A stretch of 64,000 bases of DNA from Saccharothrix sp. ALI-22-I (lineage in GTDB: Bacteria > Actinomycetota > Actinomycetes > Mycobacteriales > Pseudonocardiaceae): contig NZ_MTQP01000067.1 of assembly GCF_001984175.1 (NCBI RefSeq), forward strand, positions 806,001 through 870,000, in the 5' to 3' direction. The position numbers and the translations under genes are program-made. Shown piece by piece: positions 11,643 to 14,619 of this stretch. The stretch's first letter is position 1. Each line of letters begins with the position of its first letter. Under the pieces are notes generated by a model. That model was not told the DNA's origin. It searched no databases and saw only the letters and a program-made list of their open reading frames with translations.

Positions 11643-13970
11643 TCAGAGCTTCACCAGCGGCACGCCGCCGATGAGCATCAGCCGCACGGTTCCCGCGCCG
11701 CCGAAATCGATCGTGGCGGTCGCACGGGGCCCTGAGCCGTCCACGGCCACCACCCGACCGAGCCCGTACTTGTCGTGGCTCACCCGGTCGCCCACGTCCA
11801 GCTTCACCGCGGGCGTGTCCTTCCAGGCCGTGTTCGTCGGCGCCGGACGCGGCGAGGACGACCCGCGGCCCCACGACGTCGGCGCGGACGGCGCGGAGCG
11901 CTTCGGCTCCACCCGCCGCCACTCGACCAGGTCGGCCGGGATCTCGTCCAGGAACCGCGACGCCGGGTTCGCGGACGGCTGGCCCCACGCCGAGCGCACC
12001 AGCGCCCGCGACAGGTACAGCCGCTGCCGGGCCCGGGTGATGCCCACGTAGGCGAGCCGCCGTTCCTCGGCCAGCTCCGTCGGGTCGCCCAGCGCCCGCA
12101 TGTGCGGGAAGACGCCGTCCTCCCAGCCCGTGCAGAACACCACCGGGTACTCCAGCCCCTTGGCGGTGTGCAGCGTCATCAGCGTGACCACGCCGTCGGA
12201 CTCCGCGTCCGGCACCGAGTCGGCGTCCGCGACCAGCGACACCCGCTCCAGGAACGCCGCCAGCGAACCCTCCGCGGGCAGCCCGCCGTCGTCCAGGGAT
12301 ACCGCCTCGTCGGGCACCGGTGCCGCCGAGCCGAGATCGGTGAACTCGCGGGCCACCGTGACCAGCTCGTTCAGGTTCTCCACCCGGGTGTGGTCCTGCG
12401 GGTCCTCGCTGGCCTCCAACTCGGCCCGGTAGGCGGTCTTCTCCAGCACCGCCTCCAGGATGTCGGCCACGTCGTCGCCGCGGTCGACCAGCACGCCCAG
12501 CTCGTCCATCAGCTCGACGAACCCGACGATCGCGTTGCGCGACCGCGGGTTGAGCAGCGGCACCTTGCCCGCCACCGCGTCCCGCAGCGCCGCCGCGAAG
12601 CTGATCCGCTCCCGCTCGGCGTACGTGGACACGCACGCCTCCGCGCGGTCGCCGATACCGCGCTTGGGCACGTTGAGGATGCGCCGCAACGACACCGTGT
12701 CGTTCGGGTTGGACAGCGCCCGCAGGTACGCCAACGCGTCCCGCACCTCGCGCCGCTCGTAGAACCGGACGCCGCCGACCACCCGGTAGGGCAGGCCGAG
12801 GCGGATGAAGATCTCCTCGAACACGCGCGACTGGTTGTTGGTCCGGTAGAACACGGCGATCTCGCCGTTGTTGGCCTCGCCGCCGTCGACCAGCCGGTCG
12901 ATCTCGCCCGCGACGAACGCCGCCTCGTCGTGCTCGTTGTCCGCGACGTAGCCGACGATCTTCTCGCCGTCGCCCAGGTCGCTCCACAGCCGCTTGTCCC
13001 GGCGGTCGGGGTTGCGCGAGATGACCGCGTTCGCGGCGCTCAGGATGGTCTGGGTGGACCGGTAGTTCTGCTCCAGCAGGATCGTGGTGGCCTGCGGGTA
13101 GTCGCGCTCGAACTCCACGATGTTGCGGATCGTCGCGCCGCGGAAGGCGTAGATCGACTGGTCCGCGTCGCCCACCACGCACAGCTCGCCCGGCGGCACG
13201 CCGTCCTTGCCGGTCCCGATCAGCTCGCGGACCAGCGTGTACTGGGCGTGGTTGGTGTCCTGGTACTCGTCGACCAGCACGTGCCGGAACCGGCGGTGGT
13301 AGTGCTCGGCCACGTCCGGGTGGTTCTGCAGCAGCTCGACGGTCCGCATGATCAGGTCGTCGAAGTCCAGCGAGTTCGACTCGCCGAGCCGGCGCTGGTA
13401 GCTCTCGTAGACCTCGGCGACGCGGCGCTCCAGGTCGTTGGACGCCCGCTCCTTCGCGGTGGGGACGTCGACCAGTTCGTTCTTCAAGTTCGAGATGTGG
13501 ATCGCCAGCGTGCGCGCCGGGTAGCGCTTCGGGTCCAGGTCGAGGTCGCGGGCCACCAGCGTGATCAGCCGGCGGGTGTCGTCGGAGTCGTAGATCGAGA
13601 AGTTGGACGACATGCCGAGGGTCTTGGCCTCGCGGCGCATGACCCGCACGCACATCGAGTGGAACGTGGACACCCACATCGAACGGGCCCGCGCGCCGAC
13701 GAGGTCGGCCACGCGTTCCTTCATCTCGGCGGCGGCCTTGTTGGTGAAGGTGATCGCCATGACCTCGCCGGGGTGGACCTGGCGCTCGGCGAGCAAGTAG
13801 GCGATCCGACGGGTGAGCACGCGCGTCTTGCCCGAGCCCGCACCCGCTACGACCAGCAACGGCGCGCCCGAGTGCTCGACGGCCCGGCGCTGGGACGGGT
13901 TGAGGTCTTCGAGCAGCCGCGCGGACCGGGAGGCGGGGGGACTTGTGGGCAAGTCGAACAAGGCGCTCAT
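11643..13970 (-). CDS. pcrA: ATP-dependent DNA helicase PcrA/UvrD1
   Basis: 775 aa superfamily 1A helicase for DNA repair and replication. Seen in order: Q-motif LNPSQRRAV, Walker A VVAGAGSGKTRVLTRRI, motif Ia AITFTNKAAAEMKERV, motif II VDEYQDTNHAQY, motif III GDADQSIYAFRGA, motif IV EQNYRSTQTIL, motif V LMTLHTAKGLEYPVVF, motif VI RRLAYVGITRARQRLYL. The end carries the Tudor-like domain (GDRVSHDKYGLGRVVAV) that binds RNA polymerase in PcrA. The neighbour of chorismate mutase, as in Mtb Rv0949. ATG 13970 gives a standard N-terminus. Confidence 0.97.
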   Translation of the reverse strand: MSALFDLPTSPPASRSARLLEDLNPSQRRAVEHSGAPLLVVAGAGSGKTRVLTRRIAYLLAERQVHPGEVMAITFTNKAAAEMKERVADLVGARARSMWVSTFHSMCVRVMRREAKTLGMSSNFSIYDSDDTRRLITLVARDLDLDPKRYPARTLAIHISNLKNELVDVPTAKERASNDLERRVAEVYESYQRRLGESNSLDFDDLIMRTVELLQNHPDVAEHYHRRFRHVLVDEYQDTNHAQYTLVRELIGTGKDGVPPGELCVVGDADQSIYAFRGATIRNIVEFERDYPQATTILLEQNYRSTQTILSAANAVISRNPDRRDKRLWSDLGDGEKIVGYVADNEHDEAAFVAGEIDRLVDGGEANNGEIAVFYRTNNQSRVFEEIFIRLGLPYRVVGGVRFYERREVRDALAYLRALSNPNDTVSLRRILNVPKRGIGDRAEACVSTYAERERISFAAALRDAVAGKVPLLNPRSRNAIVGFVELMDELGVLVDRGDDVADILEAVLEKTAYRAELEASEDPQDHTRVENLNELVTVAREFTDLGSAAPVPDEAVSLDDGGLPAEGSLAAFLERVSLVADADSVPDAESDGVVTLMTLHTAKGLEYPVVFCTGWEDGVFPHMRALGDPTELAEERRLAYVGITRARQRLYLSRALVRSAWGQPSANPASRFLDEIPADLVEWRRVEPKRSAPSAPTSWGRGSSSPRPAPTNTAWKDTPAVKLDVGDRVSHDKYGLGRVVAVDGSGPRATATIDFGGAGTVRLMLIGGVPLVKL

Positions 13971-14027
13971 CGCCTGTTCACGTTACCGGTAGCCCCCGAC
14001 AGTCCGCGTCTGTGGCATCATGAACCG

Positions 14028-14090
14028 GTGCGCATGGCCCACTTCGACTTTTTCTACGGGAACCGGACTCCGGCTCCCGTGGGTCGCTAG
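14028..14090 (+). CDS. Phe/Tyr-rich leader peptide of the chorismate mutase attenuator (20 aa)
   Basis: A 20-codon reading frame from GTG 14028 (or 18 codons from ATG 14034) to TAG 14088 encodes VRMAHFDFFYGNRTPAPVGR. Four of five consecutive codons (14043-14057) are Phe or Tyr: TTC GAC TTT TTC TAC. No Shine-Dalgarno precedes it, so the mRNA may be leaderless. Phe and Tyr are the end products of the pathway served by the chorismate mutase downstream, and the following RNA can form mutually exclusive hairpins, so this reads as a ribosome-stalling leader peptide. Inference from sequence; very likely to be missed by gene callers. Confidence 0.75.
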   Translation: MRMAHFDFFYGNRTPAPVGR

Positions 14091-14141
14091 CGCAGACCAA
14101 GACACCACGAAGCCCCGGAGTCCTCGGACCCCGGGGCTTCG
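14056..14141 (+). promoter_or_regulatory. Transcription attenuator upstream of chorismate mutase
   Basis: Three alternative pairings are visible. 1:2 is ACGGGA (14056-14061) with TCCCGT (14075-14080). 2:3 is GGACTCCGG (14065-14073) with CCGGAGTCC (14115-14123), nine perfect pairs. 3:4 is the terminator CGAAGCCCCGG (14108-14118) with CCGGGGCTTCG (14131-14141), 11 pairs plus an inner GTCC/GGAC. A ribosome stalled at the Phe/Tyr codons would cover 14056-14061, free strand 2, and let 2:3 form, preventing the terminator. The terminator lacks a U-run, which is common in high-GC actinobacteria. Confidence 0.75.
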
Positions 14142-14187
14142 CTGCCGCCAGGGCTGGGACTCCCACCAGAGTCGAGAGGTCGTCACG

Positions 14188-14448
14188 ATGAACAGCACCG
14201 ATACCGCCCCGGACATCGACGCGTTGCGCCAGGAGATCGACCACCTGGACGCCGAGCTGCTGCGGCTGGTCAAGCGCCGGGTCGAAGTCTCCAAGATCAT
14301 CGGCGCGGCGCGGATGGCCGCCGGCGGCACGCGGATCGTGCACAACCGCGAGATCGACGTGATCAACAGGTACAAGGAGCTCGGCCCCGAGGGTCGGGAC
14401 CTGGCCATGATCCTGCTGAAACTAGGCCGCGGCCCCCTCGGGCGGTGA
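14188..14448 (+). CDS. Chorismate mutase, AroQ-delta type (Rv0948c-like)
   Basis: 86 aa all-helical enzyme converting chorismate to prephenate, first committed step to Phe and Tyr. Seen: IDALRQEIDHLDAELLRLVK, RRVEVSKIIGAARMAAGG (Arg/Lys active-site residues), RIVHNREIDVINRYKELGPE, and a short C-terminal helix ending GRGPLGR. Length fits the small mycobacterial enzyme that works in complex with DAHP synthase; DAHP synthase is not in this window. GAGAGG lies eight bases before ATG 14188. Regulated in all likelihood by the attenuator just upstream (14028-14141). Confidence 0.95.
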   Translation: MNSTDTAPDIDALRQEIDHLDAELLRLVKRRVEVSKIIGAARMAAGGTRIVHNREIDVINRYKELGPEGRDLAMILLKLGRGPLGR

Positions 14449-14456
14449 CATGGCCA

Positions 14457-14619
14457 ACCCGCGAGGTCGCGTCGGTCGTTCGTGACTCATTTTCCGGCGA
14501 TCACGCTCTTCGATCGTCGGAAAATGAGGCGCGAACGACCTGCCCAGCCGCGGAGCGGCGCAATTGACTACAGCCAGGCGACCGAGCCGCCGTCTGCGGA
14601 GCAGCGGCAATTAAACACG
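14457..14619. repeat. Dispersed inverted-repeat element, copy A
   Basis: Starts CGCGAGGTCGCGTCGGTCG, contains an imperfect palindrome (14474-14540; GGTCGTTCG ... CGCGAACGACC with ATTTTCC/GGAAAAT inside), and ends in the conserved CGTCTGCGGAGCAGCGGCAA tail. Related copies lie at 32419, 38676, 58787 and 60368. Its end overlaps the stop codon of the hydrolase gene on the minus strand (14611-14613). It fills the 162-base gap between convergent genes. Confidence 0.8.

Follow-up and report, generated by a model that had tools for sequence, protein, structure and literature searches.

A putative leaderless Phe/Tyr attenuator upstream of the chorismate mutase gene in Saccharothrix and other actinobacteria

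The short intergenic element at the heart of this work lies in the window (the whole 64,000-nucleotide stretch of Saccharothrix sp. ALI-22-I DNA that was analyzed) and is very probably a ribosome-mediated transcription attenuator of the chorismate mutase (CM) gene that follows it, as comparisons between genomes and fold calculations suggest. The best reading of the same evidence is that control would be exerted by phenylalanine and, less clearly, by tyrosine. The element is predicted to work like the trp/pheA attenuators, i.e., the sequence features expected of that class are present except for a U-tract, with termination and the amino-acid response being predictions. The parts of the locus are as follows.

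11643-13970, minus strand: pcrA, divergent, 5' of the leader (TIGR01073, 968 bits)
14016..14021, plus strand: putative -10 hexamer CATCAT, 6 nt 5' of the leader GTG, a leaderless leader mRNA geometry
14028..14090, plus strand: leader peptide ORF of 20 codons, VRMAHFDFFYGNRTPAPVGR, with a GTG start, a TAG stop at 14088-14090 and relatives in other genomes
14043..14057, plus strand: sensor codons TTC GAC TTT TTC TAC (Phe-Asp-Phe-Phe-Tyr), a conserved F/Y cluster
14054..14061, plus strand: strand 1, partner of 14075-14082 (covariation)
14063..14082, plus strand: remainder of the 1:2 hairpin, i.e., inner stem 14063-14066/14070-14073 and 3' arm 14075-14082 (fold, covariation)
14065..14073, plus strand: strand 2, putative antiterminator 5' half, GGACTCCGG (covariation, swap test, masking calculation)
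14108..14118, plus strand: 5' arm of the terminator-like hairpin (fold, covariation)
14115..14123, plus strand: strand 3, putative antiterminator 3' half, CCGGAGTCC (covariation, swap test, masking calculation)
14131..14141, plus strand: strand 4, 3' arm of the terminator-like hairpin (fold, covariation), with no U-tract after it
14174..14179, plus strand: Shine-Dalgarno-like GAGAGG of the CM gene (by position)
14188..14448, plus strand: chorismate mutase, AroQ class, 86 aa (TIGR01808, 106.7 bits against a cut-off of 52.15; PF01817, 40.5 bits)

A first-pass annotation of this DNA had proposed the leader and three pairings, and its coordinates proved exact: the frame opened by GTG 14028 gives a 20-residue peptide whose F-D-F-F-Y stretch is coded by 14043-14057, the antiterminator 14065-14073/14115-14123 forms nine of nine pairs, and the hairpin 14108-14118/14131-14141 forms 11 of 11. 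The 1:2 helix, listed as 14056-14061/14075-14080, lengthens to 14054-14061/14075-14082 and is joined by an inner CCGG:CCGG stem (14063-14066/14070-14073) that uses up part of strand 2. The three pairings had been described as mutually exclusive, but the listed 1:2 and 2:3 pairings have no bases in common; these two exclude one another because of the inner stem and because strand 2 sits in the 1:2 loop. Folding the region, a check that the annotation had suggested, gave a minimum free energy of -61.3 kcal/mol for 14028-14150, compared with -44.4 +/- 3.5 kcal/mol for 200 dinucleotide shuffles (z -4.9), so the region is more stable than its shuffles. The upstream gene, pcrA, runs away from the leader, so the 14108-14141 hairpin does not belong to its 3' end. 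No U-tract follows this hairpin, and a terminator scan requiring a T-run finds nothing here; in relatives, the hairpin between leader and gene is conserved. Farther downstream, a 43-nt near-perfect palindrome (CTCATTTTCCG...CGGAAAATGAG, 14486-14528) separates CM from a histone-deacetylase-like gene (PF00850) that runs toward it; its pattern occurs at eight places in the genome, and it may be a repeated extragenic element.

In the mechanism that we propose, RNA polymerase would start at or next to GTG 14028, and a ribosome would load on the 5' end of the transcript without a Shine-Dalgarno site. When charged Phe-tRNA (and Tyr-tRNA) is ample, the ribosome would pass FDFFY and strand 2 would be covered or held within the 1:2 hairpin; the 3:4 hairpin could then form, and transcription would presumably end before the CM gene despite the missing U-tract. 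When Phe-tRNA is short, the ribosome would stall at 14043-14054 and mask strand 1, strand 2 would pair with strand 3 before strand 4 is synthesized, and transcription would run on into the CM gene.

To follow the element through other genomes, we used a covariance model, R1, of 32 sequences and 23 pairs. Here, the host family is the family of the window genome, and f13, f15, f16, f17 and f18 are labels of other families, f18 probably being Streptomycetaceae or Streptomyces-like and f16 probably Micromonosporaceae-like; no f18 or f17 sequences went into R1. In the host genome the model finds a single strong site at 118.6 bits, the second-best match being antisense at 33.9 bits, and within the host family it matches 197 of 200 genomes and 46 of 46 genera. 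Though trained without Streptomyces-like sequences, R1 also matches f18 sites, with E values down to 1.4e-12. The overall tally of 115 of 394 genomes overstates the true leaders, because six of 16 extra matches inspected have no leader (L215, L217-L220 and L224, one of them at an E value of 4.8e-11). The other ten lie before CM in three cases (L216, L222 and L221, the last being the same f18 site as L117; the CM of L216 and L222 was judged by eye from the translation) and before DAHP synthase in seven. The tally also misses leaders, through strict filters and distant families: at an E value of 1e-4, R1 gave no match in ten of the 98 sources that bear a leader, most of them from f17, f15 and f13 (L083, L088, L090, L092, L115, L119, L121, L126, L133 and L135).

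Examination of individual loci ties the leader to CM. A scripted check placed a CM gene 127-289 nt 3' of the FFY codons in 61 of 62 host-family loci, and the 62nd, L207, has CM behind a variant leader (VFTQRYFAHGYRTPASVV). This downstream gene, the F/Y cluster just 5' of strand 1, the covarying alternative helices and the order promoter-hairpin-gene all bear out the pheA/trp-type logic that the first-pass annotation had seen. Among 44 named loci of CM relatives, 43 share the layout and carry either FxFFYG (one FEFYYG), with examples in Saccharothrix, Lentzea, Umezawaea and Solihabitans, or RFFYGYR, found in Mycobacterium, Pseudonocardia MAGs and another MAG; the 44th, L040, has an F-T-Y leader, which brings F/Y leaders before CM to 44 of 44. 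TIGR01808 matches occur in 145 of 296 Actinomycetia genomes. Thirty TIGR01808 loci, our own site included, comprise 18 with an FFY leader (in one, L059, the hairpin is missing), three with a degenerate leader (L051, L062 and L064) and nine with none in the stretch examined (L065, L067-L069, L071, L072 and L074-L076). The leader is present in 13 of the next 20 loci, and most of the seven without it are other CM paralogues, one being a truncated contig. All of 40 further loci (20 f18, 19 f17 and 1 f15) have a leader, mostly FxFTYGxRPxGCHGRAA in f18 and mostly FYGGRARSPLCR-like or FYGDRARSPLHR-like in f17 and f15. The suggested comparison had been with other Pseudonocardiales; the element reaches far beyond them.

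Some of these loci may be informative as exceptions. L051, L059, L062 and L064 are mycobacterial-type loci with the leader degraded or the hairpin gone, possibly natural losses of the switch. L067, L068 and L074-L076 are related CM genes without an F/Y leader, some of them leaderless-looking themselves when inspected by eye, where control may have been lost or replaced.

Covariation was examined in two alignments. In A1, a MAFFT alignment of 32 rows, helix 1:2 is 95.8% paired with three pairs changed on both sides, helix 2:3 is 89.5% paired with two such pairs, and helix 3:4 is 87.5% paired with four. The count of pairs changed on both sides is no higher than in shuffles, being equalled or surpassed in 424 of 500 for 2:3 and in 156 of 500 for 3:4; double-change cells and score do for both (0 of 500 each), with the caveat for 3:4 that a partner slid by +3 columns scores as high (0.183 vs 0.156). 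A2 is the R1 model alignment of 115 matches (111 distinct rows in full, antisense matches included), and here we used 87 sense rows, 30 of which come from model-training sources, leaving out 28 rows (27 antisense or partial, and one sense row, L207). In these 87 rows, with shuffled means in brackets, helix 1:2 is 96.0% paired (87.3) with 79 double-change cells (25.6), helix 2:3 is 87.7% paired (82.1) with 29 (8.3, maximum 16), and helix 3:4 is 92.3% paired (77.1) with 132 (47.3). The antiterminator helix 2:3 was absent from the model behind A2. Individual changes include 14060:14076 of helix 1:2, GC to CG in 23 of 87 rows, and, within helix 2:3, 14070:14118 (CG to GC or GU in 13 rows) and 14069:14119 (UA to CG in 12 rows); 14067:14121 of the same helix is unpaired in 28 rows.

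We then asked by a swap test whether the strand 2 of a clade suits its own strand 3 better than the strand 3 of other clades. For own pairs, the sum over 13 groups was -215.7 kcal/mol against -174.9 +/- 8.2 kcal/mol for permuted pairs, a value reached in 0 of 100,000 permutations; the groups are related, so this permutation value is a guide. The result is uneven: four of the 13 groups place their own strand 3 first, and two groups that consist of a single sequence place it 8th. An earlier version using gapped duplex energies was marginal (1,731 of 50,000 permutations reach the observed value), and these energies were dropped because long imperfect duplexes dominate them; the final measure, uninterrupted helices with a shorter strand 2, was picked after the gapped result was known. 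Rows were sampled at random, with up to 12 (gapped) or 15 (final) distinct rows per group, several groups having one row. On the evidence of the alignments and the swap test, all three helices covary, and strands 2 and 3 co-evolve over the 13 groups. Comparison with relatives, the other check that had been suggested, thus turned out well, i.e., the peptide cluster, the helices and the promoter spacing described below recur in related genomes with compensatory changes.

The 5' end of the leader is marked by a spaced hexamer. In 144 of 171 leaders, the pattern [TC]ANNNT is followed at a distance of 6-7 nt by an ATG or GTG that is in frame, compared with 3-17 leaders at seven other spacings (among 191 clade-labelled loci, 16 gave no row by pattern, namely 14 F17-like loci, L065 and L207, and the 14 were restored for this count). 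In a set of 139 distinct leaders, each taken with its 110 nt of upstream sequence, promoter-spaced starts numbered 115 in-frame, with a single one in each of the other two frames; if A is also accepted as the first hexamer base, the numbers become 130, 1 and 1. A pattern scan found no consensus sigma-70 promoter here. The leader looks leaderless, the hexamer spacing being the geometry of a leaderless mRNA. These frame counts also bear on the view that the element is an unregulated 5' hairpin or terminator next to a chance short frame. GC hairpins are common in actinobacterial intergenic regions, and R1 does match sites without a leader, as the six inspected cases mentioned above attest; a chance frame would nevertheless be hard to square with the in-frame excess, with three covarying helices or with the rare TTT kept at the sensor, and we regard this view as scarcely credible. 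From the spread of R1 matches and the covariation taken together, we judge that the element in the window is not chance.

The sensor codons themselves are unusual. In 36 window ORFs predicted by codon composition, Phe is written TTT at 7 of 364 positions and Tyr is written TAT at 7 of 251. Yet of 75 distinct host-family leaders, 74 have TTT as the second codon ahead of the last Tyr, and 24 of 24 f18 leaders have TTT at that position and TAT as Tyr. The F17 rows were found by a pattern that demanded TTT, which biases their TTT count; the amino-acid-level search of the 40 loci is unbiased. A single tRNA species is expected for both synonyms of each pair (TTT/TTC, TAT/TAC). We read the rare TTT at the sensor as selection for slow decoding, an alternative being a need for unpaired, U-rich RNA.

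Another way for the leader to act would be nascent-peptide arrest, in which the ribosome would be halted by the FFYGxR peptide itself rather than by slow decoding of its codons. FFYG(x)R is indeed well conserved in Pseudonocardiaceae and Mycobacterium, but Streptomyces-like leaders read FTYG and others FYGG, FYQG, FYAL or FYPD. Beyond Tyr-Gly the peptide varies by clade (RTPAPV; RPAGCHGRAA, RARSPLCR), and most f18 leaders read RPxGCHGRAA after the Tyr codon, unrelated to RTPAPV, with the f18 RNA pairings kept. What stays constant is the Phe/Tyr codons and the pairings. We set arrest aside because the peptide past Tyr-Gly differs between clades, and consider it highly unlikely.

Returning to attenuation by codon decoding, we calculated the effect of a ribosome on the fold of RNA that is free as far as 14123, a stage at which strand 3 has emerged but strand 4 has not, with ribosome cover assumed to reach +13. 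On this basis, 2:3 has a predicted probability of 0.88 when the A-site is at F14043, 0.89 at F14049 and 0.78 at F14052; the value is 0.38 at Y14055, 0.00 from G14058 onward and 0.05 without a ribosome. With RNA to 14127, the values are 0.88, 0.88 and 0.78 on the Phe codons, 0.22 on Tyr, 0.00 beyond it and 0.12 without a ribosome. Stalls 5' of the sensor codons permit 2:3 as well. The claim that a stall on the Phe/Tyr codons would release the antiterminator is thus supported for the Phe codons and only in part for the Tyr codon, and the earlier remark that mixed codons suit an enzyme feeding both Phe and Tyr needs the same adjustment, since in the fold calculation Phe appears as the main sensor and Tyr as a partial one. 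At equilibrium, with RNA to 14145, the terminator has a probability of 0.95-1.00 at every ribosome position; the switch must therefore be kinetic, with the order of synthesis essential. Across clades (duplicates and weak-helix rows removed), the last codon at which a stall permits 2:3 is the Tyr codon or its immediate predecessor in 73 of 79 host-family, 18 of 20 mycobacterial and 5 of 5 DAHP synthase leaders. For f18 it is the codon one before Tyr (Thr or Ser, adjoining TTT) in 19 of 24 leaders and the TTT codon in 5 of 24. The mask calculation gave no permissive codon in 7 of 10 F17-like leaders or in the single F13 leader.

The missing U-tract raises the possibility of translational attenuation, in which a change of fold would open or block ribosome binding at the CM gene, with the 3:4 hairpin not acting as a terminator. 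In a fold of 14063-14215, the Shine-Dalgarno site has a mean unpaired probability of 0.67 with 2:3 forced, compared with 0.22 when free, and a GACTC..GAGTC hairpin lies directly 5' of this site in 28 of 83 distinct host-family downstream regions. That fold, however, omitted most of strand 1, and the Shine-Dalgarno site begins 33 nt past the 3:4 hairpin, i.e., outside it. Moreover, the hairpin pattern beside the site is missing in 54 of 83 host-family regions and in 46 of 46 Mycobacterium and Streptomyces-like regions, while helices 1:2 and 3:4 are kept. We therefore consider translational control unlikely and prefer transcription attenuation. As a separate observation, the window copy of the hairpin (GGACTC..GAGTC, 14157-14179) abuts the CM Shine-Dalgarno site. 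The 5' arm of this copy duplicates a portion of strand 2 and might pair with strand 3 too.

Several known systems invite comparison. E. coli pheL-pheA has a Shine-Dalgarno-led leader and a U-tract terminator. It resembles the window element in having Phe codons in the leader and a target that includes chorismate mutase activity; that target is a fused CM-prephenate dehydratase, unlike the AroQ CM alone in the window. Among actinobacteria, the Corynebacterium glutamicum aroR leader/aroF attenuator was reportedly studied by Neshat in 2014. According to the portions available, that leader has Phe-Tyr-Phe codons and responds to Phe, not Tyr, availability (PMC11802643, PMC4046766); like the element here it is an actinobacterial leader before an aromatic pathway gene, although its target is DAHP synthase instead of CM, and the likeness is drawn from these descriptions. 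The Streptomyces lividans trpL, leuL and ilvL attenuators are leaderless, as the window leader appears to be, and two of them are noted as lacking a typical terminator or uridine-rich stretch; in the sections available, the eight named leaders of that study serve Leu, Trp, Ala, Ile, Met and Thr, none serves Phe or Tyr, and the word chorismate is absent from the paper (PMC8079986). The Acholeplasma uORFC-13-1 motif before aroF, for which leader-ORF attenuation was proposed, likewise concerns the aromatic pathway, in another phylum and before another gene, as far as the available text goes (PMC8632094).

Searches for the element itself gave little. Rfam 15 has no family at gathering score for 13700-14500, the best being F6 on the opposite strand at 25.1 bits (gathering 46). 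Seliverstov 2005, in the portion available, reports no conserved RNA structures 5' of Phe and Tyr operons in Actinobacteria (PMC1262725), and the available part of a Mycobacterium tuberculosis ilvB1 paper mentions neither Rv0948c nor chorismate (PMC13236596). In the accessible parts of the literature searched (PMC10272879, PMC7356990, PMC4833913 and PMC2965389 included), nothing was found on an actinobacterial CM attenuator, most subscription papers lying outside its scope. Within that literature, the hunch that such an attenuator had not been described holds, and both the CM attenuator and its wide reach appear unreported.

The f16 matches of R1 (L209-L214 and L223) precede type I DAHP synthase, an identity established by Pfam for L209 (PF00793, 266 bits) and by eye for the rest, with the leader at most 200 nt from one end of each sequence. 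These leaders (MRTAWSFWYGDGPVRTDRLHALR, MQRNFWRFYGYRPHSPVACKALR) look leaderless after TATATT or TATAGT, have a strong hairpin and contain Trp, Phe and Tyr codons, Trp falling within the cluster in 4 of 4 distinct leaders; in CM leaders, Trp occurs anywhere in 12 of 145 distinct sequences. As Trp is found in DAHP synthase leaders and rare in CM leaders, the codon set appears to track the products that depend on the enzyme. The two kinds of leader may be homologous or of convergent design. We lean moderately toward the wider reading that this is an old attenuator spread across Actinomycetia, leaderless throughout, in which the sensor codons track the target enzyme (Phe/Tyr for CM; Trp, Phe and Tyr for DAHP synthase) and the rare U-ending TTT, often with TAT, would be the sensitive step. 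The element itself would bring to the branch-point enzyme CM the kind of control for which the 2005 survey saw no conserved RNA structures, in bacteria among which are antibiotic producers and mycobacteria. It could serve to study how attenuation works on leaderless transcripts and how a terminator might do without a U-tract, offers a natural comparison of sensor codon choice, and could be used to engineer aromatic flux in producer strains.
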